Below are positions 23,640 to 45,334 of a stretch of DNA of 64,000 nt, piece by piece (position 1 is the stretch's first letter; each line of letters opens with the position of its first letter). The notes under the pieces are model-generated. The model saw nothing but the letters and a program-made list of their open reading frames with translations. It did no database searches and was not told the origin of the DNA. Origin of the DNA: Aquincola tertiaricarbonis (GTDB lineage: Bacteria; Pseudomonadota; Gammaproteobacteria; Burkholderiales; Burkholderiaceae_C); assembly GCF_023573145.1 (NCBI RefSeq), contig NZ_CP097636.1, forward strand, positions 2,170,001 through 2,234,000. The letters are read 5' to 3'. Made by a program: the position numbers and the translations under genes.

Positions 23640-23901
23640 CTCGCTCACCTCTGCGCCCTTCTTGGGCACCGTTGGCTGGTTGGAAAACCTTCCGCGACAC
23701 GGCTTGACCGGTTGGCGGATTGCGACCCGCCTTGGCTGTGGACCAGCAAAGGGGACGGGAAGGACCTGAAAGACAAGGTCGCGACTGTAGCACTGCCCCT
23801 GTGAACCCGGGGGGTGCCCCGGCCGGATCGGCCGGCGGGTGTGGCACGAACCATGAAACCGGCCTGAAACCGGCGCCCCGGGCAGGCAACCCGCGGGCGG
23901 C

Positions 23902-28664: not shown

Positions 28665-29741
28665 ATGTCCGACCCCCAAGCACTGGGCATCGACGATTTC
28701 TCGCGCTATGCGCTGGTGATCGATGCCCGGTCCCCTCGCGAGTTCGCGGAGGACCATATTCCCGGCGCGGTGAACCTGCCGGTCGTCAACGACGAAGAGT
28801 ATGCGGAGGTGGGCACCACCCACCGCACCGACACCCACAAGGCCTACCTGATCGGCGTGCGCTATTCGCTGCAGAACATCGCGCGCCACATCGGACCGCT
28901 GATCTCACACTACACGCCGGCCGACCGCATGCTGGTGTACTGCTTTCGCGGCGGCAAACGCTCGCGGCTGTGGGCCGACAACCTGCGCACCATTGGCTTC
29001 GAAGTGGACGTGCTGCCCGGCGGCTGGAAACGCTACCGCGGCTGGGTGCGCGATGCGCTGGCCACGGCGCCGCAGCGCTTCCGCTACCGCGTGCTGTGCG
29101 GCCCCACCGGCTGCGGCAAGACGCGACTGCTGCAGGCCCTGGAGGCCGAAGGCGAGCAGGTGCTGGAGCTGGAAGGCATGGCCTCGCACCGCGGATCGCT
29201 GATCGGCGCCCTGCCCGGCGCACCCCAACCCAGCCAGAAGTGGTTCGACAGCCGTCTGCTGGAGCGCCTGCGCCAGTTCGACCCGGCGCGGCCGGTGTGG
29301 ATCGAGGCCGAGAGCAAGAAGATCGGCCGCATCCAGCTGCCCGAGGCGCTGCACGAGGCCATGTACAGCAGCCCCACGCTGACGCTGGAGGTGGACATGC
29401 CCGAGCGGGTGCGGCTGTGGCACGCCGACTATGCGCACTTCGTGGCCGACCCGGTCGCCATGGTGGCGCAGCTGGCGCCCATCCGCCCGCTGGTGGGCGG
29501 CGAGGCCTATGAGCGCTGGCAGCAGTTGGCCGCCGCCGGGCAGACCGCCGAGCTGTTCGAGCGGGTGATGCGCGAGCACTACGACCCGGCCTACACCCGC
29601 TCGACGCGGCGCCTCTTCGAGAACGAGCGCAGCGGCGAGCGGCTGGCGCTGCCTTCGCTGTCGGAAGACGCGCTGCGCGAAGCCGCGCGGGCGCTGGTCA
29701 GGCGTGGGCCGGCGCCAGCCGACGGCGCGCCCAGCCGCTGA
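28665..29741 (+). CDS. mnmH: tRNA 2-selenouridine synthase
   Basis: 358 residues; also selU/ybbB. It replaces sulfur in 2-thiouridine-34 of tRNA-Lys/Glu/Gln by selenium from selenophosphate, through a geranylated intermediate. An N-terminal rhodanese domain (~1-135) has the active-site Cys in LVYCFRGGKRS (~residue 89), and a C-terminal P-loop domain starts at CGPTGCGKTRLL (~146-157). It is the first gene of the selenium island; selD, which supplies selenophosphate, is at 33213 beyond the ABC transporter. Its last 44 bp overlap the convergent permease gene. Confidence 0.95.
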   Translation: MSDPQALGIDDFSRYALVIDARSPREFAEDHIPGAVNLPVVNDEEYAEVGTTHRTDTHKAYLIGVRYSLQNIARHIGPLISHYTPADRMLVYCFRGGKRSRLWADNLRTIGFEVDVLPGGWKRYRGWVRDALATAPQRFRYRVLCGPTGCGKTRLLQALEAEGEQVLELEGMASHRGSLIGALPGAPQPSQKWFDSRLLERLRQFDPARPVWIEAESKKIGRIQLPEALHEAMYSSPTLTLEVDMPERVRLWHADYAHFVADPVAMVAQLAPIRPLVGGEAYERWQQLAAAGQTAELFERVMREHYDPAYTRSTRRLFENERSGERLALPSLSEDALREAARALVRRGPAPADGAPSR

Positions 29742-30498
29742 AACCGTCGACCACGAAGACCAGCACGAACATGGCGGCCAGCACCGTGGCCGACTGCGCC
29801 TGCTGGAACAGCGAGAGGTGGAAGTACAGCAGCTGGCCCAGGCCGCCGGCGCCGACGAAACCCAGCACGGTGGCCATGCGGATGTTCATCTCCCAGCGGT
29901 AGAGCACGTAGGCCAGTGCCTGCGGCGCCAGCAGCGGCAGGCTGCCGTAGGCGAAGGCGGCGGCGGCGCCGCTGCCGGCCTCACGCAGGCTGCGCTCGGG
30001 CGTGGCGGGCAGGTTCTCCAGCGCATCCGCAAACAGGCGCCCCAGCACGCCGGTGGTGTGCAGCGCCAGCGCCAGCGCACCGGCGAAAGGGCCCAGCCCG
30101 GCGGCCAGCACCATCAGCGCAGCCCACACCAGCTCGGGCACGCTGCGCAGCATGTTCAGCAACAGCCGAACCCCAGGCCGCAAGGCCCGCCCGCCGCGGC
30201 CAGCGGCCGGCAGCGCCAGCAGGCCACCGGCCAGCGCCGCCAGCAGCGTGCCTAGGGCCGAGATGGCCAGCGTCTGCAAGGCGCCCCAGCCCACCTTGGC
30301 CAGCATCGGGGCCGACACATCGGGCGGGAAGAACTCGGCGATGAAGCGGCCCATCTGCCGCAGCGACTCGGGCGCCGCCAGCGCCCGGTAGTCGATGGCC
30401 AGGTAGACGAAGCTGGCGATCACCGCGGCCAGCACCGCCAAGGCCAGCAGCGCGCCGGCCCAGCGGCCCGGAGGGCGGGGAGCGGGCGTGGTGCTCAT
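29698..30498 (-). CDS. PhnE-type ABC permease 2, probable selenium-oxyanion importer
   Basis: 266 residues, about six membrane helices (first at ~13-35). The ABC coupling motif EAGSGAAAAFAYGSLPLL (~residues 172-189) marks it as an inner-membrane permease of the phosphonate type. It is the last gene of the minus-strand block binding protein, ATPase, permease 1, permease 2. Start is 10 bp after the permease 1 stop. The 3' end overlaps mnmH tail to tail by 44 bp. Substrate call rests on the selenium gene context, not on this sequence. Confidence 0.85.
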   Translation of the reverse strand: MSTTPAPRPPGRWAGALLALAVLAAVIASFVYLAIDYRALAAPESLRQMGRFIAEFFPPDVSAPMLAKVGWGALQTLAISALGTLLAALAGGLLALPAAGRGGRALRPGVRLLLNMLRSVPELVWAALMVLAAGLGPFAGALALALHTTGVLGRLFADALENLPATPERSLREAGSGAAAAFAYGSLPLLAPQALAYVLYRWEMNIRMATVLGFVGAGGLGQLLYFHLSLFQQAQSATVLAAMFVLVFVVDGFSGWARRRLAPAHA

Positions 30499-30508
30499 GC
30501 GCCCCCCT

Positions 30509-31366
30509 TCACGACAGCAGCCGCCGCAGCAGCGCCGACAGACCGTCGGCCACGAACACCAGCAGCAGGAAGGTCAGCAGGATGCTGCTGGCCTCGCCGC
30601 CGTTGAGCATCTTCATCGACTGGTCCATCAGCTGGCCCAGGCCGCCGGCGCCGACGAAACCCATCACCACCGAGGCACGCACCGCGCATTCCCAGCGGTA
30701 GACGGTGTAGCTGCCCAGCTCCTGTGCGGCGCCGGGCAGCAGGCCGTAGCCGAGCGCGGCCAGCCGGCCGCTGCCGGCTTCCAGCAGCGCCCGCGCCGGC
30801 CGCGCGTCGGTGGATTCCAGGATCTCGGCGTACACCTTGCCCAGCATGCCGCCGTAGGTGATGGCCAGCGCCAGCACACCCGCCGCCGGGCCCAGGCCCA
30901 GGGCCCGCACGAACAGCAGCGCCCACACCACCTCGGGCACGGCGCGCAACACCATCAGCAGCGTGCGCGCGGCGGTGCGCAGCAGGCTGCCGCGCCAGCG
31001 CATGGCGCCCGGCCCCAGCCGCGAGACGGACAGCGCCCGGCTCATCAACAGCCCCAGCGGCGCGGCGATGACGAACGCGATGGCCATGCCCGCCGTGGCC
31101 ATGGCCAGCGTTTCCAGCGTGGCGCGGCCCAGCAGCGCCAGGAAGACGGGGTCGGTGGACGGCGGCAGGAAGCCGGCCAGGAAGCCGCCCATCACGCTCA
31201 GGTTGCCGGGCTGGAACAGCGCCGCCGGGTTGAACTCGGCCAGCTGCAGCACCGGCCACAGCAGCACCAGGGCCAGCACCAGCGCGGTCAGCCGGCCGCG
31301 GGCCTGCGGGTCACGCGGGGCCACGGCCGGGGGCGCGGAAGGCCAGGAAGAGGCAGGAGACGACAT
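30509..31366 (-). CDS. PhnE-type ABC permease 1, probable selenium-oxyanion importer
   Basis: 285 residues with a ~25-residue Pro/Ala-rich cytoplasmic N-terminus, a first helix at ~26-44 (LTALVLALVLLWPVLQLAEF), then about five more helices. EAA-type coupling motif EAGSGRLAALGYGLLPGA (~196-213). The C-terminal half MGFVGAGGLGQLMDQSMKML matches permease 2 (LGFVGAGGLGQLLYFHLSLF), so the two are diverged paralogues that probably form a heterodimeric channel. Same operon as the ATPase 36 bp upstream. Confidence 0.85.
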   Translation of the reverse strand: MSSPASSWPSAPPAVAPRDPQARGRLTALVLALVLLWPVLQLAEFNPAALFQPGNLSVMGGFLAGFLPPSTDPVFLALLGRATLETLAMATAGMAIAFVIAAPLGLLMSRALSVSRLGPGAMRWRGSLLRTAARTLLMVLRAVPEVVWALLFVRALGLGPAAGVLALAITYGGMLGKVYAEILESTDARPARALLEAGSGRLAALGYGLLPGAAQELGSYTVYRWECAVRASVVMGFVGAGGLGQLMDQSMKMLNGGEASSILLTFLLLVFVADGLSALLRRLLS

Positions 31367-31402
31367 CGGGGAACGGAACTCAGGGCACCCGTAGGCAGCC
31401 TG

Positions 31403-32212
31403 CTAGCGGCACATGACGCCGGCGGCCAGCGGCGGCTCGGCGGTGGGCAGCGGCGCGGCGCCCGGGGCCGGCGCCTCGCCGGCGTACAGCGCCTGCAACA
31501 GCGCGGGCGTGACCTCGCGCGCCGGCAGGTCGAACATCAGCTCGCCGCCCCGCATGCCCAGCACCCGCGGAAACCAGCGCAAGGCCAGTTCCACCGCATG
31601 CAGCGAAGCCACCAGCGTGGCGCCGGTGGTTTCGCTCTGCTGCACCAGCTGCTGCACGGCGGCATCGGCCAGCGTCGGGTCCAGCGCCGACACCGGCTCG
31701 TCGGCCAGGATGAGGTCGGGCCGCTGGTACAGCACACGGGCGATGCCCACGCGCTGCAGCTGCCCGCCCGACAGGCGGTCACAGCGGTCGAACAGCCGGT
31801 CGGCCATGTCCAGCCGCGCCAGCGCCTGCTGGGCGCCGACCGCATCCACCGGATGCAGCAGCGACCACAGCGCCCGGCCCAGGCCCCACTGCCCCAGCCG
31901 CCCGGCCAGCACGGCCGTGACCACCCGCAACCGCGGCGGGATCGGCGGCGCCTGGTGCACGCTGCCGATGCGCGCGCGCAGGCGGCGCAGCTCGGCCGGC
32001 CGCAGCTGCCAGGGCGAGGCCGCCAGCACCTGCAAGCGGCCCTCGCTGGGCCGCAGGCCGCAGCCCAGCAGCCGCAGCAGGCTGGTCTTGCCGGCGCCCG
32101 AGGGGCCGATCACGGCCAGGCGTTCACCGGCGCGGGCCGACAGCGACAGCCCCCGCAGCGCGCGGTGGCCGTTGCCATGCACCAGGCCCACGCCTTCCAG
32201 CTGGAAGGACAT
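31403..32212 (-). CDS. PhnC-type ABC ATPase, probable selenium-oxyanion importer
   Basis: 269 residues. Walker A GPSGAGKT (36-43), Q-loop around [11 protein letters not shown], signature [13 protein letters not shown] (~148-160), Walker [14 protein letters not shown] (~168-180) and the H-loop in [13 protein letters not shown]-terminal extension of ~30 residues is rich in Ala and Pro. It powers import through the two permeases. It starts 10 bp after the binding-protein gene. Confidence 0.88.
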
Positions 32213-32221
32213 GGCGACGCT

Positions 32222-33082
32222 TTACTTCAGCAGGCCGGCCGCCTTGGCCGCGGCTTCGATGCCGTCGTAGTTGGACGACTGCGTCGGGATGAACTTGCTG
32301 GCCCGCTGCAGCGCCATGATTTCCTTGTGCTGCGGGTTGGCCGGGTCCAGCTGCAGGAAGGCGTCGGTCAGCTTGCGCGTCAGCGCGGCGTCCAGGCCCG
32401 GGCGCACCGTCCAGTTGTAGTCGAAGTAGGTGGGCGTGACGGACAGCACCCGCACCTTGGCGGCGTTGGGGTTGCCGGCTTCCACCAGCTTGTCCAGCAC
32501 CGAGGCGTTGAGCACGCCGGCCTCGGCCCGGCCGGCGGCCACGAAGGCCACGGTGGCATCATGCGCGCCCGAAAACGCCACGGTCTTGAAGTCGCGCTCA
32601 GGGTCGATGCCGGCCTTCATCAGGTAGAAGCGCGGCATCAGGCTGCCCGAGGTGGACGACGGCGCCCCGAAGGCGAAGGTCTTGCCCTTCAGGTCGGCCA
32701 GCGTCTGCGCCGGGCTGTCCTTGGGCACGATGAAGCGGCTGGTGAACACCGCATCTTCGGCGCGCTGCACGATGGGCACCGCGCCGCCCTGGGTGCGCAG
32801 CTTGGCCTGCACGTAGGTGAAGCCGCCCAGCCAGGCCAGGTCCAGCTTGTTGGTGGCCAGGCCTTCCACCACGGCCGCATAGTCGGTCACCGGGATGAAC
32901 TGCACCTCCATGCCCGTCTGCTGCTTGAGGTAGTCGCCCAGCGGCTTGAACTTGCGCTGCAGCTCGGTAGGCGCCTCGTCGGGGATGGCCGACACGCGCA
33001 GCGTGCCGGTCTGGGCCCAGGCGGCCAGGCTGGTGCCCAGCAGCAGGGCAGCCAGGGCGCGGCGGGTCAGGGTGGGGTTCAT
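32222..33082 (-). CDS. Periplasmic binding protein of a putative selenate ABC importer
   Basis: 286 residues from MNPTLTRRAL at 33082; the open frame runs further upstream but lacks a signal there. A signal peptide (1-23, ending AWA) exports it. The mature protein is a PhnD-like type 2 periplasmic binding protein: RVSAIPDEAPTELQRKF, then DYAAVVEGLATNKLDLAWLG and FTSRFIVPKDSP, SSTSGSLMPRFYL. In established classifications, proteins of this type beside selD are treated as putative selenate binders rather than phosphonate binders. It lies 130 bp from and divergent to selD, with mnmH at the other end of the transporter operon. No phn C-P lyase genes are here. No direct substrate evidence. Confidence 0.82.
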   Translation of the reverse strand: MNPTLTRRALAALLLGTSLAAWAQTGTLRVSAIPDEAPTELQRKFKPLGDYLKQQTGMEVQFIPVTDYAAVVEGLATNKLDLAWLGGFTYVQAKLRTQGGAVPIVQRAEDAVFTSRFIVPKDSPAQTLADLKGKTFAFGAPSSTSGSLMPRFYLMKAGIDPERDFKTVAFSGAHDATVAFVAAGRAEAGVLNASVLDKLVEAGNPNAAKVRVLSVTPTYFDYNWTVRPGLDAALTRKLTDAFLQLDPANPQHKEIMALQRASKFIPTQSSNYDGIEAAAKAAGLLK

Positions 33083-33212
33083 GGCGGGGTCCTTCTTGTC
33101 TGTGCAAAGGGCCGCGGGCCTCGACCAGGCACCGCGCACCGGGCGCAAGGGTAATGCAGGGCTGCCAGCGCACGGCCACAATCCGGGCCAAAGCCCCGAG
33201 GAGTGCCCCGCG

Positions 33213-34268
33213 ATGAATTCCCCTGCCCCCGCGCCCCTGCGCCTGACCAGCTTTTCCCACGGTGGCGGCTGCGGCTGCAAGATCGCGCCCGGCGTGCTCA
33301 CCGAGATCCTGCGCCAGCGTGCCGGCGGCCTGGTGCCGCCGCAGCTGCTGGTGGGCATCGAGACCTCGGACGATGCCGCGGTCTACCAGCTCAACGACGA
33401 GCAGGCGCTGATCGCCACCACCGACTTCTTCATGCCCATCGTCGACGACCCGTTCGACTTCGGCCGCATCGCCGCCACCAACGCCATCAGCGACGTGTAC
33501 GCCATGGGCGGCCGGCCCATCATGGCGCTGGCCCTGGTGGCCATGCCGGTGAACCAGCTGCCGGTGGAGGTGATCGGCCAGGTGCTGCGTGGCGGCGAGT
33601 CGGTGTGCCAGGCCGCGGGCATCCCCATCGCCGGCGGCCACACCATCGATTCGGTGGAGCCCATCTACGGCCTGGTGGTGATGGGGCTGGTGCACCCGAA
33701 GAAGGTGCGGCGCAACGCCGCCGCCCGCGCCGGCGACCTGCTGGTGCTGGGCAAGCCGCTGGGCGTGGGCGTGCTGTCGGCCGCGCTCAAGAAAGGCAAG
33801 CTGGACGAGGCCGGTTATGCGCGGCTGATCGACACCACCACGCGCCTGAACACGCCGGGAATGGCCTTGGCCGAGCTGGACGGCGTGCATGCGCTGACCG
33901 ACGTCACCGGCTTCGGCCTGGCCGGCCATGCGCTGGAAATGGCCCGCGGCGCCGGCCTCACGGCCGTGATCGACTGGTCGCAGGTGCCGCTGCTGCCCGG
34001 CATCGAGGCGATGGCGGCCGACGGCTTCGTCACCGGGGCGTCGGGCCGCAACTGGGCCGGCTACGGCGCCGAGGTGCAGCTGGCCGCCGGCCTGCCGCCC
34101 ACCGCGCAGGCCCTGCTGAGCGACCCGCAGACCTCGGGCGGCCTGCTGGTGAGCTGCGCGCCCGAGGCGCTGGACGCGGTGATGGCGGTGTTTGCGCGCG
34201 AAGGTTTCGCCGACGCCGCGGTGGTCGGCCGGCTGCAGGCCGGGCCGGCCGCCTTGCATGTGGAATGA
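33213..34268 (+). CDS. selD: Selenide, water dikinase (selenophosphate synthase)
   Basis: 351 residues from the ATG at 33213 (CGAGGAG ribosome site ~9 bp ahead). It makes selenophosphate from selenide and ATP, the donor for both Sec-tRNA (SelA) and selenouridine (MnmH). The catalytic loop is SHGGGCGCKIAPG with Cys20 and Lys23, matching E. coli Cys17 and Lys20, so this is a Cys and not a Sec form. Metal/ATP Asp residues are in ETSDDAAVYQL and TDFFMPIVDDPFDFGRIAA. It diverges from the transporter operon; the 130-bp gap could hold a shared control region. Confidence 0.97.
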   Translation: MNSPAPAPLRLTSFSHGGGCGCKIAPGVLTEILRQRAGGLVPPQLLVGIETSDDAAVYQLNDEQALIATTDFFMPIVDDPFDFGRIAATNAISDVYAMGGRPIMALALVAMPVNQLPVEVIGQVLRGGESVCQAAGIPIAGGHTIDSVEPIYGLVVMGLVHPKKVRRNAAARAGDLLVLGKPLGVGVLSAALKKGKLDEAGYARLIDTTTRLNTPGMALAELDGVHALTDVTGFGLAGHALEMARGAGLTAVIDWSQVPLLPGIEAMAADGFVTGASGRNWAGYGAEVQLAAGLPPTAQALLSDPQTSGGLLVSCAPEALDAVMAVFAREGFADAAVVGRLQAGPAALHVE

Positions 34269-34438
34269 CACCCGGTCACGCCACTTGTTCACGACACCTG
34301 AAAGCCGTGCCGTGATGTAGTGCGCAGCAACCCTCACAAAAGCCAGCGCGGTTGGGCGCTTGTCAGCACCATGCCGCACCGCCTTGCCATGAAGCCGCCC
34401 CCCACGAGGCGTGGCAGGCGCTGGCGTGAGAGGTTGCC

Positions 34439-35251
34439 ATGCTGTCCGAAGAAACGATCAGACCGGCCGAAGTGCCGGAGGCCCCCGTCACCGACGACTG
34501 CGCCACGCAGCTGGCCGCGCTGCGGGCGGAGTTCGAGCACCGCCTCGCCCAGCGCAGCGCCGAGTTCGAAGCCGCCATCAAGCAGCTGGAGGCTTTCAGC
34601 TACACCGTCTCGCACGACTTGCGGGCGCCGCTGCGGGCGATCGACGGCTTTTCCAAGATCGTGCTGGACGACTACGGCCCGCTGCTGCCCGACACCGGCC
34701 GCCAGTACCTGGCCCTGATCCGCGACAGCGCCCAGAAGATGGGCCGGCTGATCACCGATCTGCTGAGCTTTTCGCGCGCCGGGCGGGCCGAGCTGCACAA
34801 GCGGCCGGTCAACACCCAGGTGCTGGTGGCCGAGGCCTTGTCCACGCTGGCGCCGCTGCGCGCCGGCCGCCAGATCGACCTGCGCATCGGCCAGCTGCCG
34901 CCCTGCCATGGCGACACCGCGCTGCTGCGCCAGGTGTGGGTGAACCTGCTGTCCAACGCGCTGAAGTACAGCCGCCCGCGCGAGGTGGCGGTGATCGAGG
35001 TGCACGGCCGCGTGGAGTCCGACGGCAGCGTGCGCTATTCGGTGCGCGACAACGGCGTGGGCTTCGACATGCGCCATGCCGAGCGGCTGTTCGGCGTGTT
35101 CGAACGGCTGCACCAGGCCGACGATTTCGAGGGCACCGGCGTAGGCCTGGCCATCGTCCAGCAGATCCTGCAGCGGCACGGCGGCGGCATCACCGCCAGT
35201 GCGGTGACCGGCCATGGCGCGATCTTCGAGTTCCATGTTCCCGCTGCCTGA
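34439..35251 (+). CDS. Soluble sensor-less histidine kinase
   Basis: 270 residues. After a short N-terminus and a coiled coil (~25-50), the HisKA domain has phospho-His59 in YTVSHDLRAPLRAI, and the HATPase domain has N-box NLLSNALKY (~174-182), G1 DNGVGFD (~206-212), and G2 GTGVGLAIV (~234-242). The type is that of the phytochrome-family kinases (Cph1-like) but there is no sensor or membrane domain. Good GAGAGG ribosome site. Its end overlaps the response-regulator start by 17 bp, so they are a pair. It lies between selD and the fdn genes. Confidence 0.88.
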   Translation: MLSEETIRPAEVPEAPVTDDCATQLAALRAEFEHRLAQRSAEFEAAIKQLEAFSYTVSHDLRAPLRAIDGFSKIVLDDYGPLLPDTGRQYLALIRDSAQKMGRLITDLLSFSRAGRAELHKRPVNTQVLVAEALSTLAPLRAGRQIDLRIGQLPPCHGDTALLRQVWVNLLSNALKYSRPREVAVIEVHGRVESDGSVRYSVRDNGVGFDMRHAERLFGVFERLHQADDFEGTGVGLAIVQQILQRHGGGITASAVTGHGAIFEFHVPAA

Positions 35252-35735
35252 CGCCGTGCTGCCCCGGGGATCGCAGCGCATCGAAGTGCTGGTGGCCGAG
35301 GACGAGCCCATCGACCTGGAACTGACGCTGCGGGCCCTGCACCTGGCGCCGGTCGCCGGCGGCGTGCAGGTGGCGCGCGACGGGCAGGACGCCCTCGACT
35401 TCCTGATGTGCCAGGGCGAGCATGCCTGGCGCCGTGGCGAAGAGCCGTTGCGGCTGGTGATGATGGACGTCAAGCTGCCCAAGCTCAACGGCTTCGACGT
35501 GCTGGCCCGGCTGCGGGCCGAGCCGCTGACGCGGCTGCTGCCGGTGGTGATGTTCAGCTCGTCCCAGGAACAGGTGGACGTGGTGCGCGGCTACCAGCTG
35601 GGCGCCAACAGCTACGTGGCCAAGCCGGTGGAGTTCGAGCAGTACCTGCAGGCGGTGCAGGAGCTGGCGCGCTACTGGCTGCAGCGCAACCTGGCGCAGG
35701 AGGGGCCGCAGGCCACCGCTGCGCTGCCGCGCTAG
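35235..35735 (+). CDS. Single-domain response regulator, Rcp1-like
   Basis: 166 residues from the ATG at 35235, inside the kinase 3' end. Receiver domain only: acidic residues in LVAEDEPIDLEL, phospho-acceptor Asp78 in LVMMDVKLPKLNGF, and Lys in NSYVAKPVEF. The long insertion FLMCQGEHAWRRGEEPLR is typical of Rcp1-type regulators paired with phytochrome-like kinases. No DNA-binding domain, so output must go through another protein. A 30-bp palindrome follows the stop. Confidence 0.88.
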   Translation: MFPLPDAVLPRGSQRIEVLVAEDEPIDLELTLRALHLAPVAGGVQVARDGQDALDFLMCQGEHAWRRGEEPLRLVMMDVKLPKLNGFDVLARLRAEPLTRLLPVVMFSSSQEQVDVVRGYQLGANSYVAKPVEFEQYLQAVQELARYWLQRNLAQEGPQATAALPR

Positions 35736-35755
35736 CAGCGTTGGCTGCGCGCTGC

Positions 35756-35785
35756 GCGGGGCTGCGGGATATCCCGCAGCCCCGC
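35756..35785. terminator. 30-bp perfect palindrome, probable hairpin terminator
   Basis: Every base pairs around a centre between 35770 and 35771; the central ten bases are GGGATATCCC. It starts 21 nt after the response-regulator stop and ends 45 nt before the lipoprotein gene. As RNA it folds into a very stable stem with little or no loop. No T-tract follows, so factor-independent termination is not certain; a protein-binding site is an alternative. Confidence 0.55.
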
Positions 35786-35829
35786 CGCCCCAAGTTGACC
35801 GGGCACGGCGGGGCGGCTAGGCTCGCCCG

Positions 35830-36156
35830 ATGCAGTACCCACCCACCCGCTCACGCCTGACGCAGCTGCTCGGCATCGCGCTCGGCGGCGCAGCCTTGGC
35901 CGCCCTGTCCGCCTGCGACCCCAAACCTTCCAACCCGCCCACGCCCAGCGCGGAAGCGGCACCTGCCGCAGCCCCGGTGGCCAGCGGCGCTCAACCCGGC
36001 GTCAAGCCGGTCGATGCCGGCCATGCCGCTTCGTCGGCCGGCCCGTCGGACGGCACCACCGCCATCGGTGGCATGGCCGGCCCCGGTGGTCATACCGGCA
36101 GCGACGCGCCGGCCCCCACCGGCGGCGACGGCGCCGCCTCGGCGGCCGGCCGCTAG
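35830..36156 (+). CDS. Small Pro/Ala/Gly-rich lipoprotein of unknown function
   Basis: 108 residues. The signal peptide has lipobox ALSAC, giving lipid on Cys29. The mature part is low complexity (Pro, Ala, Gly, Ser), without recognisable fold, ending GGDGAASAAGR. It lies 47 bp upstream of fdnG and is co-directional, so it may be transcribed with the formate dehydrogenase. I cannot assign a role; a periplasmic tether or accessory of Fdn is only a guess from position. Confidence 0.65.
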   Translation: MQYPPTRSRLTQLLGIALGGAALAALSACDPKPSNPPTPSAEAAPAAAPVASGAQPGVKPVDAGHAASSAGPSDGTTAIGGMAGPGGHTGSDAPAPTGGDGAASAAGR

Positions 36157-36203
36157 CCCCCGTTTTTTCCGCAGCCCCCAGGACAATCCCAGGAGCATTT
36201 CAG

Positions 36204-39200
36204 ATGATGGACATGGACCGAAGGCAGTTCCTCCGGGTCAGTGGGGCGGGCCTGGTCGGCTCAAGCCTCGTGGCCCTGGGGTTCTCGCCCGATGCCGCAC
36301 TGGCCGAGGCCCGCAGCTTCAAGCTGGCCCGCGCCACCGAGACCCGCAACACCTGCCCCTACTGCTCGGTGGGCTGCGGGATCATCATGTACAGCCTCGG
36401 CGACAAGGCGAAGAACGTCACCGCCGACATCATGCACATCGAGGGCGATCCGGATCACCCGGTGAACCGCGGCACGCTGTGCCCCAAGGGCGCCGGCCTG
36501 CTCGACTTCGTGCACAGCCCCAACCGGCTCAAGTACCCCGAGGTGCGCGAGCCCGGCAGCAAGGAATGGAAGCGCATCGGCTGGGGTGAGGCGCTGGACC
36601 GCATCGCCAAGCTCATGAAGGCCGACCGCGATGCCAACTTCATCGCCAACACGGCGGACGGCAAGCCAGTGAACCGGTGGGTGTCCACCGGCATGCTGTG
36701 CGCCTCCGCCTCGTCCAACGAAACCGGGTACATCACGCACAAGGCGTTCCGGTCGTTGGGCATGCTCGCCTTCGACAACCAAGCCCGCGTTTGACACGGA
36801 CCGACGGTGGCCAGTCTGGCCCCGACGTTCGGCCGCGGTGCGATGACCAACCACTGGCAAGACATCCAGAATGCGGATGTCGTGCTGATCATGGGCGGCA
36901 ATGCCGCCGAAGCCCACCCGTGCGGCTTCAAGTGGGTGATCGAAGCCAAGAAGCACAACAAGGCGAAGCTCGTGGTCGTGGACCCGCGCTTCACGCGTTC
37001 GGCCGCCATGGCCGACTACTACGCCCCCATCCGGCCGGGCAGCGACATCGCCTTCCTGGGCGGCGTCATCCGCTACCTGCTGACGCAGGACAAGATCCAG
37101 ACCGAGTACGTCCGCAACTACACCAACGCCAGCTTCATCGTCGGGCCCGACTTCAAGTTCGAGAACGGGCTGTTCAGCGGCTATAACCCTGACAAGCGCA
37201 GCTACGACAACAAGAGCTGGGGCTACGCGATGGACGAGCAGGGGTTCGCCAAGGTGGACCCGACGATGCAGGACCCGCAGTGCGTGCTGCAGGTGATGAA
37301 GCGCCACTTCGAGCGTTACACGCCCGAGATGGTCAGCCGCATCACCGGCACGCCGCAGGACCAGTTCCTGAAGGTGTGCGAGTACATCGCCAGCACCAGC
37401 GGCCCCGAGCGCACCATGACCATCATGTATGCGCTGGGCTGGACGCAGCACAGCCAGGGCTCGCAGATCATCCGCACCGGCGCCATCCTGCAGCTGCTGC
37501 TGGGCAACATCGGCGTGCCCGGTGGCGGCATGAACGCGCTGCGCGGCCACAGCAACATCCAGGGCCTGACCGACCTGGGCCTGTTGTCGAACTCGCTGCC
37601 CGGCTACCTGAGCCTGGCGCGCGAGAGCGAGCAGGACCTGGAGACGTACTACAAGCCCCGGGCGCTGAAGCCGCTGCGGCCCAACCAGATGAGCTACTGG
37701 CAGAACTACCCCAAGTTCTTCGTCAGCCTGCAAAAGGCCTGGTGGGGCGACGCCGCTACCGCGGACAACGAGTGGGCCTTCCACTACCTGCCGAAGATCG
37801 ACAAGCTCTACGACGTGCTGCAGACCTTCGAGCTGATGACGCAGGGCAAGCTCAACGGCTACATCTGCCAGGGCTTCAACCCGGTGGGCTCGTTCCCCAA
37901 CAAGGCCAAGATCGTCGAGGGCCTGTCCAAGCTCAAGTTTCTGGTCACCATCGACCCGCTGGTCACCGAGACCAGCGAGTTCTGGCGCAACTTCGGCGAG
38001 TACAACGACGTCAAGACCGAGGACATCCAGACCACGGTGTTCCGCCTGCCCTCCACCTGCTTCGCGGAAGAAGACGGCTCGCTCACCAACAGCAGCCGCT
38101 GGCTGCAGTGGCACTGGAAGGGCGCCGAGCCACCGGGCGAGGCGCGGGGCGACGTGGAGATCGTGGCCGGCATCTGGACGCGCATCCGTGCGCTGTACCA
38201 GAAGGAAGGCGGCGCCTTCCCCGACCCCATCGTCAAGCTCACCTGGAACTACAAGATCCCGCACAGCCCGTCGTCGGAAGAGCTGGCCCGCGAGTACAAC
38301 GGTCGCGCGATCACCGACGTGCTGGACCCCAAGGACCCGACCAAGGTGCTCGCCAAGGCCGGCGAGCAGCTGTCCGGCTTCGGCCTGCTGCGCGACGACG
38401 GCAGCACCTCGGCGGGTTGCTGGATCTACACCGGCGCCTGGACTCAGGCCGGCAACCAGATGGCCCGGCGCGACAACAGCGACCCCTACGGCGTGGGCCA
38501 GGCGCTGAACTGGGCCTGGGCCTGGCCCGCCAACCGGCGCATCCTGTACAACGCCGCGGCAGCCGACCCCACCGGCAAGCCGTGGCGTGCCGACCGCCGC
38601 TACCTCACGTGGAACGGCAGCGCCTGGTCAGGGGCCGACGTGCCGGACATCGCGCCGGGGGCCAACCCGAACGACCCGGAGGCCGTGCGCCCCTTCATCA
38701 TGACCGCCGAGGGCGTGGCGCGCCTGTTCGCGCCCACCGGCATGGCCGAAGGGCCGCTGCCGGAGCACTACGAGCCCTTCGAGTCGCCACTGGTGGGCAA
38801 CCCGCTGCACCCCAACAACCCGGTGGCACGGGCCAACCCGGCGGCGCGGGTGTTCAAGCGCGACCTGGACGCGATGGGCCAGCCCAAGGACTACCCGTAT
38901 GCGGCCACCAGCTACCGCCTGACCGAGCACTTCCACTACTGGACGAAGAACGTGCGCACCTCGGCCGTGATCCAGCCCCAGCAGTTCGTCGAGATCGGCG
39001 AGGCGCTGGCCAAGGAGAAGGGCATCGCGCATGGCGACATGGTCAAGGTGAGCAGCCCGCGTGGCTTCATCAAGGCCGTGTGCGTGGTGACCAAGCGCAT
39101 CCGTGAGCTGCAGTGCGACGGCAAGCCGATGCACACGGTGGGGCTGCCCAACCACTGGGGCTTCGTGGGGGTGGCCCGGCCGGGCTACCTGGTGAACACG

Positions 39201-39278
39201 CTGACGCCTTTCGTCGGCGACGCCAACACCCAGACGCCCGAGTACAAGAGCTTCACCGTCAACATCGAGAAGGCATGA
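36204..39278 (+). CDS. fdnG: Selenocysteine-containing formate dehydrogenase, alpha subunit
   Basis: 1024 residues read through an in-frame TGA at 36792-36794, which encodes Sec197 (Sec196 in E. coli FdnG). The context [21 protein letters not shown] matches FdnG exactly at this site. A Tat signal lies at the start ([10 protein letters not shown]), so it is exported folded. A [4Fe-4S] site uses Cys51, Cys54, Cys58 and Cys93 ([17 protein letters not shown]). The bis-MGD molybdenum or tungsten domain follows, and the C-terminal MopB domain starts near residue ~860 ([20 protein letters not shown]). It oxidises formate in the periplasm. Without Sec insertion it would stop at 196 residues. An AGGAG ribosome site lies 8 bp ahead. 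Confidence 0.96.
36792..36835 (+). promoter_or_regulatory. Bacterial SECIS element of fdnG
   Basis: It starts at the TGA Sec codon. The apical minihelix is GGCC (36809-36812), loop AGTCT (36813-36817), GGCC (36818-36821); a lower stem pairs CCGA (36801-36804) with TCGG (36829-36832). This is the shape and loop of the E. coli fdnG and fdhF elements, which SelB binds to insert Sec. The element is coding throughout. The winged-helix C-terminus of SelB (43298-45232) would be its reader. Confidence 0.85.
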
Positions 39279-39294
39279 AGGAGCACTGACGACC

Positions 39295-40173
39295 ATGTCT
39301 TCATTGCAATCGCTGGACATCGCCCTGCGCTCGGCCACGCCCACGGCCGCGCCGCAGGTGCGCAAGCAACCCGAGGTCGCCAAACTCATCGACGTGTCCA
39401 CCTGCATCGGCTGCAAGGCCTGTCAGGTGGCCTGCATGCAGTGGAACGACCTGCGTGACGAGGTGGGCACCAACCACGGCACCTACGACAACCCCAACGA
39501 CCTCACCCCCCAGAGCTGGACGGTGATGCGCTTCTCCGAGGTGGAACCCGAGGAGAACAAGCTGGAGTGGCTGATCCGCAAGGACGGCTGCATGCACTGC
39601 GAGGACCCGGGCTGCCTCAAGGCCTGCCCGAGCCCCGGCGCCATCGTCAAGTACAGCAACGGCATCGTCGACTTCATCAGCGAGCACTGCATCGGCTGCG
39701 GCTACTGCGTCAGCGGCTGCCCGTTCGACGTGCCGCGCATCAGCCAGGCCGACAACAAGGCCTACAAGTGCAGCCTGTGCTCCGACCGCGTGACGGTGGG
39801 CCTGGAGCCGGCCTGCGTGAAGGCCTGCCCCACCGGCGCCATCCGCTTCGGCACCAAGGAGGACATGCACGACTACGCCGAGGAACGCCTGGTCGACCTG
39901 AAGGAACGCGGTTTCCAGAACGCGGGCCTGTACGACCCGGCGGGCGTGGGCGGCACCCACGTGATGTACGTGCTGCAGCATGCCGACCGGCCCGAGCTGT
40001 ACCACGGCCTGCCGAAGGACCCGCACATCAGCCCGCTGGTGGGCCTGTGGAAGGGCCTGGCCAAGCCGCTGGCCCTGGTGGCGATGGCCGGCGCGGTGAT
40101 CGGCGGCTTCTTCCACTACATGAAGGTGGGCCCGGTCGAAGAGAAGGACGTTGACGACAAGGAGCGGCCATGA
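39295..40173 (+). CDS. fdnH: Formate dehydrogenase beta (iron-sulfur) subunit
   Basis: 292 residues. Four [4Fe-4S] sites: [11 protein letters not shown] (~residues 36-46), [14 protein letters not shown] (~98-111), [16 protein letters not shown] (~132-147) and [21 protein letters not shown] (positions ~160-180). A C-terminal membrane helix (~253-272, [17 protein letters not shown]) anchors it. It passes electrons from FdnG to the cytochrome b subunit. No own Tat signal, so it hitchhikes with FdnG. Its start is 16 bp after fdnG; its end overlaps fdnI by 4 bp. Confidence 0.95.
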
Positions 40174-40829
40174 CGACCCTGACCCCCGGGCGGGAACGCA
40201 CCCGCTACCTCCTGCGCTACAAGGATAGCACCCGCATGAACCACTGGTTCGTGGCGCTGCTGTTCGTCGCGGCGGCGCTGTCGGGCCTGGCGCTGTTCCA
40301 CCCCACGCTGTTCTTCTTCAGCAACCTGTTCGGCGGCGGCCAGCTCACCCGCATCCTGCACCCCTTCCTGGGCGTGTTGATGGTGCTGGGCTTCATCGTG
40401 CTGTTCTTCACCGTCTGGCGCGAGAATCTCATCGGCCGCGCCGACCGCGAGTGGTTGCGCCATGCCGGCGAGATGCTCAAGGGCCAGAAGGAGAACATGC
40501 CGGCGGTGGGCAAGTACAACGCCGGCCAGAAGCTGGTGTTCTGGGCCTTTGCCGTCAGCCTGCTGCTGCTGCTCGTCACCGGCTTCATGTTCTGGGCGCC
40601 CTACTTCTTCCATCTGGTGCCGGTGACGCTGCGCCGGCTGGCTATCCTCGTGCATTCGGTGTCGGCGGTGGTGCTGGTGCTGTCGGTCATCGTGCACGTG
40701 TATGCGGCCATCTGGGTCAAGGGCACCACCCGCGCCATGACCCGCGGCACCGTGACCGAAGGCTGGGCCCGGCTCAACCATCCGCTGTGGCACCGTGAAA
40801 TGACCGAGGGCCATCCGCCGCGTGACTGA
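40170..40829 (+). CDS. fdnI: Formate dehydrogenase gamma subunit, cytochrome b556
   Basis: 219 residues, four membrane helices (~20-43, ~55-76, ~112-135, ~150-175). Haem-ligand His candidates are in [20 protein letters not shown], and [20 protein letters not shown]. It takes electrons across the inner membrane to the quinone pool. Start overlaps fdnH, and fdhE starts inside its last 8 bp, so fdnGHI-fdhE is one operon. Confidence 0.93.
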
Positions 40830-41820
40830 ATCCGCTTCCAACTCCGCCCGCACCAGCCGCCTGCTGGACCCGGAGCAGATTGCCATCCAGGCCGGGCGGC
40901 AGATGCCGTTCCTGCGCCTGCCGCAACGCGCCACGGTGTTCGCCGAGCGCGCGCTGCGGCTGCGCCAGCTGTCGGCCGGCCACCCGATGCGCGACTACCT
41001 GCTCTTCATCGCCGAGCTGGTGCAGGCCCAGCACCAGGTGCTGCAGGACTACGCCGCCGTGCCGCTGCCCGATGCGGCGGCCTGCGACAGCGCCGCCCGT
41101 GGCTTGCTGCCGCCCCTGCCCGCCACCTTGTGGACGCTGGATGCGGCCTGGACCGGCGAGTTGCGCCGGCTGCTGGGCCTGCTGGCGCCGCGCCTGCCCG
41201 CCGGGCCGGCGCTGGATGTGGTGCAGCGCGTGATCGCCACCGACGACGCCACGCTGAACCGCCAGGCCGACCTGCTGCGCAACGGCCTGGCCCGCGGCCT
41301 GGACATGGCCGCCGCGCCGCTGGTGGCGGCCGGGCTGCAGGCCTATTTCACCCACCTGGTGCTGGCCACCGCCGAAACGCATGGCGAGGCGGTGTTCGGC
41401 CGCACCGACCCGGCCACCGGCTGCCCGTGCTGCGGCAGCCGGCCCACCGCCAGCGTCACCCGCATCGGCGCCGATGAATCGGGCCACCGCTACCTGGCCT
41501 GCTCGCTGTGCGCCACGCAGTGGCATTACGTGCGCATCAAGTGCGCGCACTGCGAAAGCACGCGCGGCATCAGCTACCAGCAGCTCGAAGGTGATGCCAA
41601 GGACGGGGCTCGTGGCGCCTACCTGGGCGCCGTCAAGGCCGAGTGCTGCGACAGCTGCGGCCACTACCTCAAGCTGGTGGCGATGGAACGCGACCCCGAG
41701 GTGGAACCGATGGCTGACGACCTGGCCAGCGTGGCGCTGGACCTGCTGGTGAGTGAAGCCGGCCACCAGCGCGCCGGCGTCAACCTGATGCTGGTGTTCG
41801 GAGAAGCGGAAAGCCCATGA
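40822..41820 (+). CDS. fdhE: FdhE, formate dehydrogenase accessory protein
   Basis: 332 residues starting with GTG inside the fdnI stop region. Paired CxxC motifs of the FdhE family are present in the C-terminal half: CPCCGSRP (~199-206), CSLCATQW and IKCAHCES (~229-251), and CCDSCGHYL (~275-283), probably two iron- or zinc-binding rubredoxin-like sites. FdhE is a Tat proofreading/assembly chaperone that binds the catalytic formate dehydrogenase subunit. Its stop overlaps selA by 4 bp. Confidence 0.93.
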   Translation: MTESASNSARTSRLLDPEQIAIQAGRQMPFLRLPQRATVFAERALRLRQLSAGHPMRDYLLFIAELVQAQHQVLQDYAAVPLPDAAACDSAARGLLPPLPATLWTLDAAWTGELRRLLGLLAPRLPAGPALDVVQRVIATDDATLNRQADLLRNGLARGLDMAAAPLVAAGLQAYFTHLVLATAETHGEAVFGRTDPATGCPCCGSRPTASVTRIGADESGHRYLACSLCATQWHYVRIKCAHCESTRGISYQQLEGDAKDGARGAYLGAVKAECCDSCGHYLKLVAMERDPEVEPMADDLASVALDLLVSEAGHQRAGVNLMLVFGEAESP

Positions 41821-43301
41821 ATCTGAAGGTCGACGAGTCCATGGTCCATGGCTCGAAGGCTTTGCTGCAGCAGCTGCCTTCGATCGACCGGATCATGCAA
41901 TGGCCTGCGGCGCAGGCCCTGGTGGCCGCGCATGGCCACACCCTGGTGGCCGGTGAAGCCCGCGCCCTGGTGGCCGCCCGCCGCGAGGCGGCGCGCGCCG
42001 GCACGCTGGCCGCCACCGCGCTGCAACCCGAAGCCCTGGCCGCCGACCTGCGGCAGCGTTGCGGCCAGCGCCTGGCGCCGCGGCTGAAGCCGGTGCTCAA
42101 CCTCACCGGCACGGTGATCCACACCAACCTGGGCCGCTCGGTGCTGGCCGACGAGGCGCTGGCGCACATCCTGCGCACCATGGCCGGCACCAACAACCTG
42201 GAGTTCGACCTGGACAGCGGCGGCCGCGGCGACCGCGACACGCTGGTGGAAGACCTGCTGTGCGAGATCACCGGCGCCGAGGCGGCCACGGTGGTCAACA
42301 ACAACGCCGGGGCGGTTCTGCTCACCATCGCCGCGCTGGCCCACGGGCGCGAGGCCATCGTCTCGCGCGGCGAGCTGGTGGAGATCGGCGGCGCCTTCCG
42401 CATGCCCGACGTGATGGCCAGCGCCGGCGCCCGCATGGTGGAGGTGGGCACCACCAACCGCACCCATCCGGCCGACTACCAGCAGGCCTTCAACGAGCGC
42501 ACGGCGCTGGTGATGAAGGTGCACACCAGCAACTACGCGGTGCAGGGCTTCACCTCGTCGGTGGATGAAGCGGTGCTGGCGCCGCTGTGCCGGGCCCGCG
42601 GCGTGCCGCTGGCCACCGACCTGGGCAGCGGCTCGCTGATCGACCTGGCCGCCTACGGCCTGCCGCGCGAACCGCTGCCGCAGGAGATGCTGCGCGCCGG
42701 CTGCGACGTCGTCACCTTCAGCGGCGACAAGCTGCTGGGCGGGCCGCAGGCCGGGCTCATCGTGGGCAGCAAGGCGGCGGTGGGCCGCATCCGCAAGTAC
42801 CCGATGAAGCGGGCGCTGCGCATGTCCAAGCTGCCGCTGGCAGCGCTGGAAGCCACGCTGATGCTGTACCTGCAGCCAGAGCGCCTGGTGCGCGACCTGC
42901 CCACGCTGCGCCATCTCACACGCTCGCAGGCGCAGATCCTGGTGATGGCCGAGGCGCTGAAGCCGGTGCTGGCCCGCGCGCTGGCACCGCGCTTCGAGGT
43001 GGGCTGCGTGGCGCTGAGCAGCCAGATCGGCAGCGGCTCCTTGCCGGTGGACCGGCTGCCTTCGGCGGGCCTGGCCATCGGCCTGCCGGGCAGCGGCGAC
43101 AAGGGCGGCCCGGCCAAGGGCGTGGGCACCGCGCTGGACGAGCTGGCCCGCGCGCTGCGCGGCCTGCCGCTGCCGGTGGTGGGCCGCATCGCGCACGACC
43201 GGCTGCTGCTGGACCTGCGCTGCCTGGACGATGCCGAGCCCTTGGCCGCGCAGCTGCCGGCGCTGCGGGAGGCGCTGGGCATGGGGCCGCTCAACACATG
43301 A
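41817..43301 (+). CDS. selA: L-seryl-tRNA(Sec) selenium transferase
   Basis: 494 residues, slightly longer than the E. coli enzyme. PLP-dependent; converts Ser-tRNA(Sec) to Sec-tRNA(Sec) with selenophosphate. PLP-Lys is Lys305 in [15 protein letters not shown]. The N-terminal tRNA-binding domain ([19 protein letters not shown]) and the [17 protein letters not shown] segment (~97-113) are conserved. It starts as ATGA on the fdhE stop and ends as ATGA on the selB start. Confidence 0.97.
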
Positions 43302-45232
43302 TCGTAGGAACGGCAGGCCACATCGACCACGGCAAGACCACGCTGGTGCGCGCCCTCACCGGCGTCGACACCGACCGCCTGCCCGAAGAAAAGCGCCGCG
43401 GCATCTCCATCGAGCTGGGCTATGCCTACCTGCCCGCGCCCGGTGGCCAGGTGATCGGCTTCGTCGACGTGCCGGGCCATGAACGGCTGCTGCACACCAT
43501 GCTGGCCGGCGCCACCGGCATCGATCATCTGCTGCTGCTGGTGGCCGCCGACGACGGCGTGATGCCGCAAACGCAGGAGCACCTGGCCGTGGCCAGCCTG
43601 CTGGGCCTGCGTGAAGGCACCGTGGCCATCACCAAGACCGACCGCGTGGACGCTACCCGCCTGGCCGAGGTGCAGGCCCAGGTGCAGGCGCTGCTGGCGC
43701 CCACCGCGCTGGCAGGCGCACCGGTGTTCGAAGTGGCGGCGCCGAGCGGCCACGGCGTGCCGGCGCTGCGTGAACACCTGCTGCAGCGCGCGGGCGAGCC
43801 GCGCCCGCAGGCCAGCGGCCCGGCCTTCCGGCTGGCGGTCGACCGCGCCTTCACGCTGGGCGGCACCGGCACCGTGGCCACCGGCAGCGTGCACGCCGGC
43901 CAGGTAGCCGTGGGCGACGAACTGCGCCTGGTGCCCGGCGACCGCTTGCTGCGGGTGCGCAGCCTGCATGCCCAGAACCAGCCCGCGCAGCAGGCCCATG
44001 CGGGTCAGCGCTGCGCGGTGGCGCTGGCCGCCATCGAGCGCGACGCGGTCCACCGCGGCCAGTGGCTGTGCGCGCCCGAGGTGGCGCATGAGACGGCCCG
44101 CATCGACGTGCGGCTGCAGCTGTGGCCCGGTGAGGCCAAGGCCTTGCGCAGCGGCACGCCGGTGCACCTGCACCTGGGCACCGCCGACGTGATGGCCGGC
44201 GTGGCACTGCTGCAGGTGGATGGCCTGGACGACGCCAACGCCCTGCCCCCGGGCGGGCGCGCGCTGGCCCAGCTGGTGCTGCACACGCCCATCGCCGCCT
44301 GGCAGGGCGACCGCGGCGTGCTGCGTGATGCCAGCGCCAGCCGCACCGTGGCCGGCATCACCGTGCTCGATGCGCAGGCGCCGGCCCGCTACCGCCGCAC
44401 GCCCGAGCGGCTGCAATGGCTGGCCGCGGCCGAGCGGCCCACGGTGGCGGAGCGTCTTGCAGCGCTGCTGCAGGCATCGCCCCAGGGCGTGGATCTGGCC
44501 GCGCTGGCCCGCGGCATGGGCTGGCCGGTGGCCGCCCTGCCCTTGCCGGCCGATGCGCTGCGCATCGAAGGCGGCGGCCGCCTGGCGGCCATTGCCGGCC
44601 CAGCACTGCAGGCGCTCCAGCAGCGGCTGCTGCAGGCGCTGGCAGACCTGCATGCCCAGCAGCCCGAAGAGATCGGCCCCGATGCGCGCCGCCTCAAGCG
44701 GCTGGCCGCGCCGCGGGTGGACGACGCCGTTTTCCGCCATGCGCTGGAAGCGCTGCTGGCGCAGGGCGCGGTGGTGCTCAGCGGCGCCTGGCTGCACCTG
44801 CCCGCGCATGCGGCGCGCCTGTCGGAAGCCGAGGAAAAACTGGTGCAGAAGCTGATGCCCGCGATGCTGGACGGCGGCTTCGACCCGCCCTGGGCGCGCG
44901 ACCTGGCCAAGCTGGCCGCCACGCCCGAGGCGCTGGTGCGCCTGACCCTGGCCAATCTTTCGCGCCGCGGCCAGGCCTTCGCGGTGGTCAAAGACCTTTA
45001 CTATCCGCTCCCCACGCTGGAGCGGCTGGCCGCTTTGGCCCGCCAGGCCGCGGCGGCGCCCCAGGGCCTGAGCGCCGCGAGCTTTCGCGACGCCACCGGC
45101 CTGGGCCGCAAGCGGGCCATCCAGGTGCTGGAGTTCTTCGACCGCGTGGGCCTGACCCGCCGGGTGAAGGACAGCCATGTGCTGCGCAGCGACGCAGCGC
45201 TGTTCGAAGGCAGCCGCCCACCCGGCGGCTGA
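43298..45232 (+). CDS. selB: Selenocysteine-specific elongation factor SelB
   Basis: 644 residues. GTPase domain: G1 GHIDHGKT (7-14), switch 2 [10 protein letters not shown] (~60), G4 TKTDRVD (~113). EF-Tu-like domains II and III follow, then four C-terminal winged helices (~375-644) that bind the SECIS; the last includes [20 protein letters not shown], split at its helix turn. It delivers Sec-tRNA to UGA in fdnG. The start is the ATG overlapping the selA stop; selC begins 7 nt after its stop. Confidence 0.97.
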
Positions 45233-45238
45233 CGCGCA

Positions 45239-45334
45239 GGGAGGAAATCGTCCCCGGTGGGACGGCCGGGCTTCAAACCCGGTGGGTGGCGCCATGCGTC
45301 GCCGGGAGGGTTCGACTCCCTCTTCCTCCCGCCA
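45239..45334 (+). tRNA. selC: tRNA-Sec (UCA)
   Basis: Complete with encoded CCA (45332-45334). An 8-bp acceptor (45239-45246 with 45323-45330) and discriminator G45331. D stem of 6 bp (45249-45254 with 45259-45264) with a 4-nt loop. Anticodon stem CCGGG/CCCGG, loop CTTCAAA, anticodon TCA at 45273-45275. A long variable arm (45283-45305) with a 7-bp stem allowing two G-U pairs, and a 5-bp T stem around TTCGACT. The 8-bp acceptor, 6-bp D stem and long variable arm are the hallmarks of tRNA-Sec. Confidence 0.97.

Follow-up and report, generated by a model that had tools for sequence, protein, structure and literature searches.

A selenium-utilisation island of Aquincola tertiaricarbonis with a predicted selenite importer

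Within a window of 64,000 nucleotides from Aquincola tertiaricarbonis (the whole stretch that was analysed, G000:C2:2170001-2234000), positions 28665-45334 hold a selenium-utilisation island of about 17 kb, in which mnmH, a four-gene ATP-binding cassette (ABC) importer, selD, a kinase/receiver pair, a lipoprotein gene, fdnGHI, fdhE, selA, selB and selC lie together. The genome (G000) belongs to the Burkholderiales and has 7.1 Mb in 4 contigs. On sequence evidence we consider it probable (about 0.6) that the importer, which is divergent from selD, is a selenite importer that would feed SelD, MnmH and the selenocysteine (Sec) machinery. A role of the importer in selenium use, which an earlier note on this DNA had assumed, appears well supported by co-occurrence and by recurrent linkage to selenium genes; its action in transport, selenite as its substrate and joint working of both divergent units are our inferences.

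In the scheme that we propose, a selenium oxyanion at low concentration, most likely selenite as HSeO3-, would be taken up by the importer and would then be reduced to selenide by general thiols inside the cell, a step that is not encoded in the island. SelD would convert the selenide into selenophosphate, MnmH would use selenophosphate to form 2-selenouridine in tRNA, and SelA, SelC and SelB would use it to insert Sec at the UGA of FdnG; these later steps follow the established roles of the families. The earlier note had named the genes of the island, and profile searches, ARAGORN and Rfam place all of them where it had put them, with every family-assignable gene verified by profile search. 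It had also claimed that all parts needed for selenium use are here. This goes too far, since neither a seryl-tRNA synthetase (SerRS) nor a reductase from selenium oxyanion to selenide is among the profile matches of the island. The fdhD gene, as the note had said, lies outside the island (G000:C1:1540999).

Co-occurrence and linkage of the importer with selenium genes

The periplasmic binding protein of the importer exceeds the cut-off of TIGR04553, a hypothetical 'selenate' family whose model is of the kind 'hypoth_equivalog', and shares its genome with the selenium traits selD, mnmH and selABC. Its nearest relative in a contig scan, in which records of its own genome were possibly excluded, is also from Aquincola tertiaricarbonis (93%). 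We followed the family in 120 Burkholderiales genomes, surveyed by profile searches, and in 398 Pseudomonadota, the two sets having 4 genomes in common. Among the Burkholderiales, selD was found in 90 genomes, mnmH in 89 (87 above the cut-off), selA in 35 and a TIGR04553 member above the cut-off in 26. Of these 26 importer genomes, 25 have selD and all have mnmH, that of G059 being a partial match under the cut-off; the sole one lacking selD is the draft genome G002, which is split into about 210 contigs and has mnmH and selA. In the phylum survey, selD is present in 32 of 34 genomes with a member, compared to a base of 128 in 398 (Fisher p about 3e-15, in a test that ignores relatedness). The selenoneine gene senB, accepted at E values up to 1e-20 and above the cut-off in 36 of 39 cases, occurs in 17 of the 26 importer genomes in Burkholderiales, compared to 22 of the 94 others.

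By profile coordinates, selD, mnmH, selA or senB is found no more than 10 kb away from 8 of the 26 Burkholderiales members, and a ninth (G011) was added by tblastn. In the control, only 1 of 124 below-cut-off PhnD-type matches, among the matches listed, was so placed (Fisher p 2e-6, relatedness again ignored); such paralogues number at least as many as those listed, and one control row, G104:C152 (219.7 bits), is a fragment of a TIGR04553 member. Across the phylum, 15 of 34 members are linked to selenium genes, 14 of them to selD and 1 to selA. The neighbours differ from one locus to another. Sec genes adjoin the importer in the window, L002, L004-L007, L009, L041, L049 and L185. For mnmH, this is the case in the window, in Pseudacidovorax (L004-L007), in Pseudomonas (L062, L070 and L080), and in L128 and L188-L192. 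Selenoneine genes are neighbours in Polynucleobacter and others (e.g. L024 and L028), as well as in L003, L113, L133, L168 and L169, where SenA is above the cut-off in L113, L133, L169 and L003 and SenB in L168; the SenA of L048 is below it (386 versus 420). A 'senA' found in L122 by tblastn was rejected, because NCBIfam identifies it as EgtB. Since these neighbours span Sec, selenouridine and selenoneine genes, the importer follows selenium and not one pathway.

Five of the 14 linked selD genes have a long form (about 300 bits), for which a fusion with an NADH oxidoreductase was confirmed in L168; the fusion is also found in L113. Such fused SelD proteins stand near both the importer and selenoneine genes in L113 and L168, and, judged by length and score only, in L169, L170, L193 and L194. 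Reduction of the imported selenium ahead of its use by SelD is a possible role of the fused domain.

The binding protein and its pocket

In a structure model of the window binding protein (mean predicted local distance difference test 89.7), the nearest solved proteins are PhnD1 of Prochlorococcus and Synechococcus. These two are themselves above the TIGR04553 cut-off of 250 bits (337.7 for Synechococcus and 300.8 for Prochlorococcus), and PtxB of P. stutzeri scores 164. A tree with 91 rows placed the two PhnD1 proteins together with all 66 rows of the family in one clade of 68 rows (support 100/100, branch 1.65), with three PtxB rows outside it together with a paralogue from the own genome. 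Inside the clade, PhnD1 is nested in a subclade (100/99) with the selD- or senB-linked members of L167, L168, L169, L193 and L194; the Prochlorococcus row is long and has an odd composition.

The pocket residues of Prochlorococcus PhnD were named by Bisson et al. (PMC5700983), and those of the window protein are identical to PhnD1: Asp35, Tyr68, Phe113, Ser-Thr-Ser143-145, His174, Asn192, Asp221 and Tyr222. Of 132 distinct members, all keep Tyr68, Phe113 and Ser143-Thr144-Ser145, and 131 keep His174 and Tyr222; Asp35 is found in 124 (Glu in 8), Asn192 in 121 and Asp221 in 120 (Asn in 12). A subgroup of eight (L127, L129-L133, L135 and L136) has exchanged Asp35, Asn192 and Asp221 for Glu, Asp and Asn, and includes L133, which is linked to selenoneine genes and selD, and L136, which has an fdn-fdhE operon with selA 9.9 kb off. 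PtxB, in the two rows compared, has Tyr, Ser and Gln where the window protein has Phe, Asn and Asp. Phosphite (HPO3) and selenite (SeO3) each have three oxygens and a small apex, and both would fit under the tyrosine cap. The pocket Asp, which takes a ligand proton, should disfavour fully ionised selenate.

The picocyanobacterial PhnD1CE (PDB 5LQ5, 5LQ8 and 7S6G) was published as phosphite-binding (PMC5700983) and is presumed to be a phosphate transporter (PMC10284923), the reported PhnD1 affinities being 0.05-4.3 uM for phosphite and 7-182 uM for phosphate. PtxABC and PhnCDE share the fold and the PhnC/PhnE-like partners with the window importer. AioX and ArrX have the PhnD fold of the window protein and bind arsenic oxyanions; they differ in that they are sensory and not transport proteins, and that AioX binds arsenite through Cys. 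Phosphate was reported in the site of crystallised AioX (PMC5908839), which sets a precedent for a PhnD-fold site that accommodates both phosphorus and metalloid oxyanions.

Substrate of the importer

We tentatively extend the proposal to the whole family, although this wider claim is somewhat likelier to fail than to hold: the TIGR04553 importers, including PhnD1CE of picocyanobacteria, may be dedicated high-affinity importers of selenite, with phosphite bound by mimicry. According to PMC10284923, Synechococcus WH8102 and MITS9220 can use neither phosphite nor methylphosphonate, and the affinity is described there as fortuitous; the word fragment 'selen' is absent from the main text of that ligand-screen paper. 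The selD of Prochlorococcus and Synechococcus is reported to carry an NADH-dehydrogenase-like extension and ybbB has been reported in cyanobacteria (PMC1273633; the fusion also in PMC2432076), and the same kind of fused selD adjoins TIGR04553 members in our loci. Among viral contigs, none of 17 pattern matches was confirmed as a PhnD1-like gene. If the extended claim is true, the phosphite-binding PhnD1 of Synechococcus strains that cannot use phosphite would be explained, a widespread marine transporter would be re-assigned from phosphorus to selenium, and the missing prokaryotic selenium transporter would be supplied with crystal structures already deposited. Because the island candidate has solved close relatives, prokaryotic selenium uptake becomes testable by one binding assay.

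In reviews of 2022 (PMC9312934) and 2026 (PMC13188914), a high-affinity transport system dedicated to selenium is said to be still unidentified in prokaryotes. A 2024 study of Methanococcus deleted five candidate transporter loci, and each proved dispensable with every selenium species that was tried (PMC11097638). PMC5029168 noted that an ABC ATPase lies close to orphan selD genes. Among the open-licence papers listed on ABC or PhnD-type selenium importers, on selenoneine clusters with transporters, on PhnD or selenium in picocyanobacteria and on selenium islands, we found none that proposes such an importer. The accession TIGR04553 was absent from the papers listed for it; its automatic name occurs in PMC13077682.

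Several observations weigh against reading the importer as one for selenite. Most members are unlinked, with no selenium gene within about 10 kb in 17 of the 26 Burkholderiales and no linkage in 19 of the 34 Pseudomonadota, although at least 4 of the 17 lie on contigs shorter than 13 kb and give a partial view. The comparison of neighbourhoods across Burkholderiales that the earlier note had proposed thus shows the genes scattered in most transporter genomes, yet the linkage recurs in differing arrangements and is therefore not accidental. Members above the cut-off are lacking in 65 of the 90 selD-bearing Burkholderiales (G104 has a fragment), so that the importer is not required for selenium use. 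One genome that is 100% complete (G258) has a member but no selD above the cut-off and no mnmH, and a second (G373, 78% complete) has neither gene above the cut-off. The solved members bind phosphite at the affinities given above, the transporter is induced in P-deficient medium in Synechococcus WH8102, and Prochlorococcus MIT9301, which also has PhnD2 and ptxD, can use phosphite (all PMC10284923 for the strains). One permease of the importer exceeds the PhnE cut-off, and in the related arsenic family the pocket residues alone did not set specificity (PMC5908839).

The member in G258 is the only one of the 132 to lose the cap Tyr, and by tblastn it has no transporter genes beside it. In the same genus, G380 (L167) has two tandem TIGR04553 genes adjoining selD, in comparison to the one orphan copy of G258 (L165). 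It is possible that this contrast is a natural loss experiment.

The phosphorus-related points favour another explanation, in which the system imports phosphite, phosphonate or phosphate and its position in the island is incidental. Fold and pocket both match PhnD1, for which phosphite affinity has been measured and a phosphate role proposed (PMC10284923), and of the two permeases one is above the PhnE cut-off (TIGR01097, 216.7) and one below. We nevertheless consider this explanation unlikely, because the importer co-occurs with selD in the phylum and is recurrently linked to selenium genes and, in the 120 Burkholderiales, not to phnJ. The carbon-phosphorus lyase gene phnJ is present in 8 of the 120 Burkholderiales, and in 7 of these 8 a below-cut-off PhnD paralogue lies within 8 kb (13 paralogue rows, hand-picked, were compared with phnJ). 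It is not commoner in importer genomes (2 of 26, versus 6 of 94 others); in the two that have both, G012 and G117, phnJ and the TIGR04553 gene are on different contigs, and a profile search gave no phnJ match in the own genome. The window binding protein reaches only 193.1 bits against PhnD (TIGR03431, cut-off 261.1) and the ATPase 195.5 bits against PhnC (cut-off 266.1). The inability of the two Synechococcus strains to use phosphite also argues against it.

In addition, the own genome holds, on another contig than the island, a separate ptx-like operon (L215, G000:C1:411000-424500) with a PhnC protein (292 bits), a binding protein (L196) placed with PtxB by the tree, a PhnE protein (289 bits) and a protein of the D-2-hydroxyacid dehydrogenase family, which we take to sit at the position of ptxD. 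Its binding protein scores 158.7 bits to TIGR04553, under the cut-off. The island has no PtxB-type binding protein and no adjacent D-2-hydroxyacid dehydrogenase. Two of the 16 scanned open reading frames of L215 match an ISCR transposase profile, which suggests that this operon is of mobile origin.

Selenate, the substrate in the NCBIfam name, is quite unlikely in our estimate, even though all evidence for selenium linkage fits any selenium oxyanion. The window protein is a member by score, and the name says selenate, but the model is of hypothetical function, and the pocket and the relatives point to selenite. The pocket is of the phosphite-binder type, a three-oxygen site with a Tyr cap and an Asp that touches the protonated ligand in Pm_PhnD, and the four-oxygen phosphate is reported to bind Pm_PhnD about 3500-fold more weakly than phosphite (182 versus 0.051 uM; PMC5700983). 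This argument is weakened by the 12 of 132 members in which Asn replaces the proton-taking Asp. Another small chalcogen species, such as sulfite, selenocyanate or an organoselenium acid like methylseleninate, for a supply of selenium or of selenium and sulfur together, would share the geometry, and such species cannot be told apart by linkage to selenium genes; we regard it as about as unlikely as selenate, with the weak counter-evidence that no conserved sulfur-assimilation neighbour appeared in a clustering of 80 loci whose clusters were partly identified.

How unusual the clustering is

The proximity of selD and mnmH is common, with the two within 20 kb in 59 of the 88 genomes that have both. 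In contrast, selD and selA are this close in only 2 of 34. It is unusual, as the earlier note had said, and more than a chance event to find Sec machinery clustered with selD, mnmH and a transporter, and the island is a further variant of already known Sec-gene clusters. In Coprococcus and Slackia, all known Sec-decoding genes were described in 2015 in one or two small regions (PMC5322559); the candidate transporter there is YedE, unlike the window importer, and 'phosphonate' is absent from the main text of that paper.

Among the loci compared, the order of the island is kept in the Aquincola tertiaricarbonis locus L002, whose stretch ends within selA. In Pseudacidovorax (L004-L006), fdnGHI-fdhE-selA-selB-selC, selD, the importer and mnmH (39-40% identical) are all present in a different order. 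Of this set, L009, on a shorter contig, lacks only mnmH, while L007 holds the part from fdhE onward; the locus edge truncates fdnG in L004-L007 and L009. In L041 and L049 the importer adjoins selB-selA-fdhE-fdnIHG, with a UGA in fdnG and with selC. A search for the fdnG UGA motif found no match in L136 or in the truncated fdnG genes of L004-L006 and L009.

Gene content of the island

The features of the island are given in Table 1. The importer genes are convergent with mnmH, and the 3' ends of mnmH and the gene of permease 2 overlap. Between the importer and selD, no clear conserved operator motif appeared in nine aligned intergenic pieces, drawn from 24 extracted divergent pieces that include the window and in part represent one genome under two locus names.

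Table 1. Features of the selenium island, in window coordinates
Feature	Position	Strand	Evidence
mnmH (tRNA 2-selenouridine synthase)	28665..29741	+	NF008752, 417.5 bits (cut-off 266)
ABC permease 2, PhnE-like	29698..30498	-	TIGR01097, 222.5 bits (above cut-off 216.7)
ABC permease 1, PhnE-like	30509..31366	-	TIGR01097, 196.6 bits (under cut-off 216.7)
ABC ATPase, PhnC-like	31403..32212	-	TIGR02315, 195.5 bits (under cut-off 266.1); PF00005
Periplasmic binding protein, predicted selenite-binding	32222..33082	-	TIGR04553, 358 bits (cut-off 250)
Intergenic region of 130 bp between importer and selD, presumed divergent promoters	33083..33212	.	Sequence
selD, Cys form, motif GGGCGCK	33213..34268	+	NF002098, 545.6 bits; TIGR00476, 435.3 bits
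Histidine kinase (HisKA + HATPase_c)	34439..35251	+	Domain matches
Single-receiver response regulator	35214..35735	+	PF00072 alone
Small Ala/Gly-rich putative lipoprotein	35830..36156	+	Translation
fdnG, selenocysteine formate dehydrogenase-N alpha	36204..39278	+	TIGR01553, 1463 bits, UGA read through
Selenocysteine insertion sequence (SECIS) element, SECIS_3	36789..36847	+	Rfam RF01989, 84.6 bits (gathering score 63)
fdnH	39295..40173	+	TIGR01582, 460 bits
fdnI	40170..40829	+	TIGR01583, 180 bits (cut-off 115.85)
fdhE	40822..41820	+	TIGR01562, 234.2 bits
selA	41817..43301	+	TIGR00474, 559.9 bits
selB	43298..45232	+	TIGR00475, 463.4 bits
selC, tRNA-Sec, UCA anticodon	45238..45334	+	ARAGORN; Rfam RF01852, 80.3 bits

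FdnG is a Sec-containing formate dehydrogenase-N, with a SECIS element, the Sec machinery nearby and a single in-frame UGA at 36792-36794 (U197, context ARV-U-HGP). The genes that follow are tightly packed, with overlaps of 4 nt between fdnH and fdnI, 8 nt between fdnI and fdhE, and 4 nt both between fdhE and selA and between selA and selB, and with selC starting 5 nt after the end of selB. Because of these overlaps and the short distance to selC, the arrangement suggests that fdnG to selC form one transcription unit. In 8 of the 90 selD-bearing Burkholderiales (G005, G012, G046, G055, G060, G090, G100 and G104), the selD match contains one in-frame TGA. SelD itself may be a selenoprotein in those eight genomes; the window SelD has Cys.

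The MnmH translation contains the motifs CFRGGKRS and GPTGCGKT, whose roles we assume to be those generally assigned to them. It is 91% identical to the MnmH of L002 and just 38-42% identical to the importer-adjacent MnmH of other Burkholderiales loci, and in the survey its 318.5 bits are among the lowest full-length matches (most are at about 345-378). This suggests that the island mnmH is a replaced or divergent copy.

The earlier note had included the kinase/receiver pair as a part of the system, and this we could not uphold. The receiver protein matches PF00072 only and has no output domain, so that the DNA-binding output expected of a selenium-responsive two-component system kept beside selenium genes is lacking. 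In 106 neighbourhoods, close homologues of the kinase and the receiver adjoin the transporter in L002 alone, and other kinase matches reach at most 36% identity. The pair are probably passengers. No Pfam match was found for the lipoprotein, and nothing found here ties either the pair or the lipoprotein to selenium. Upstream of the island, a sucA RNA motif is located at 23642-23725 on the minus strand (81.5 bits).

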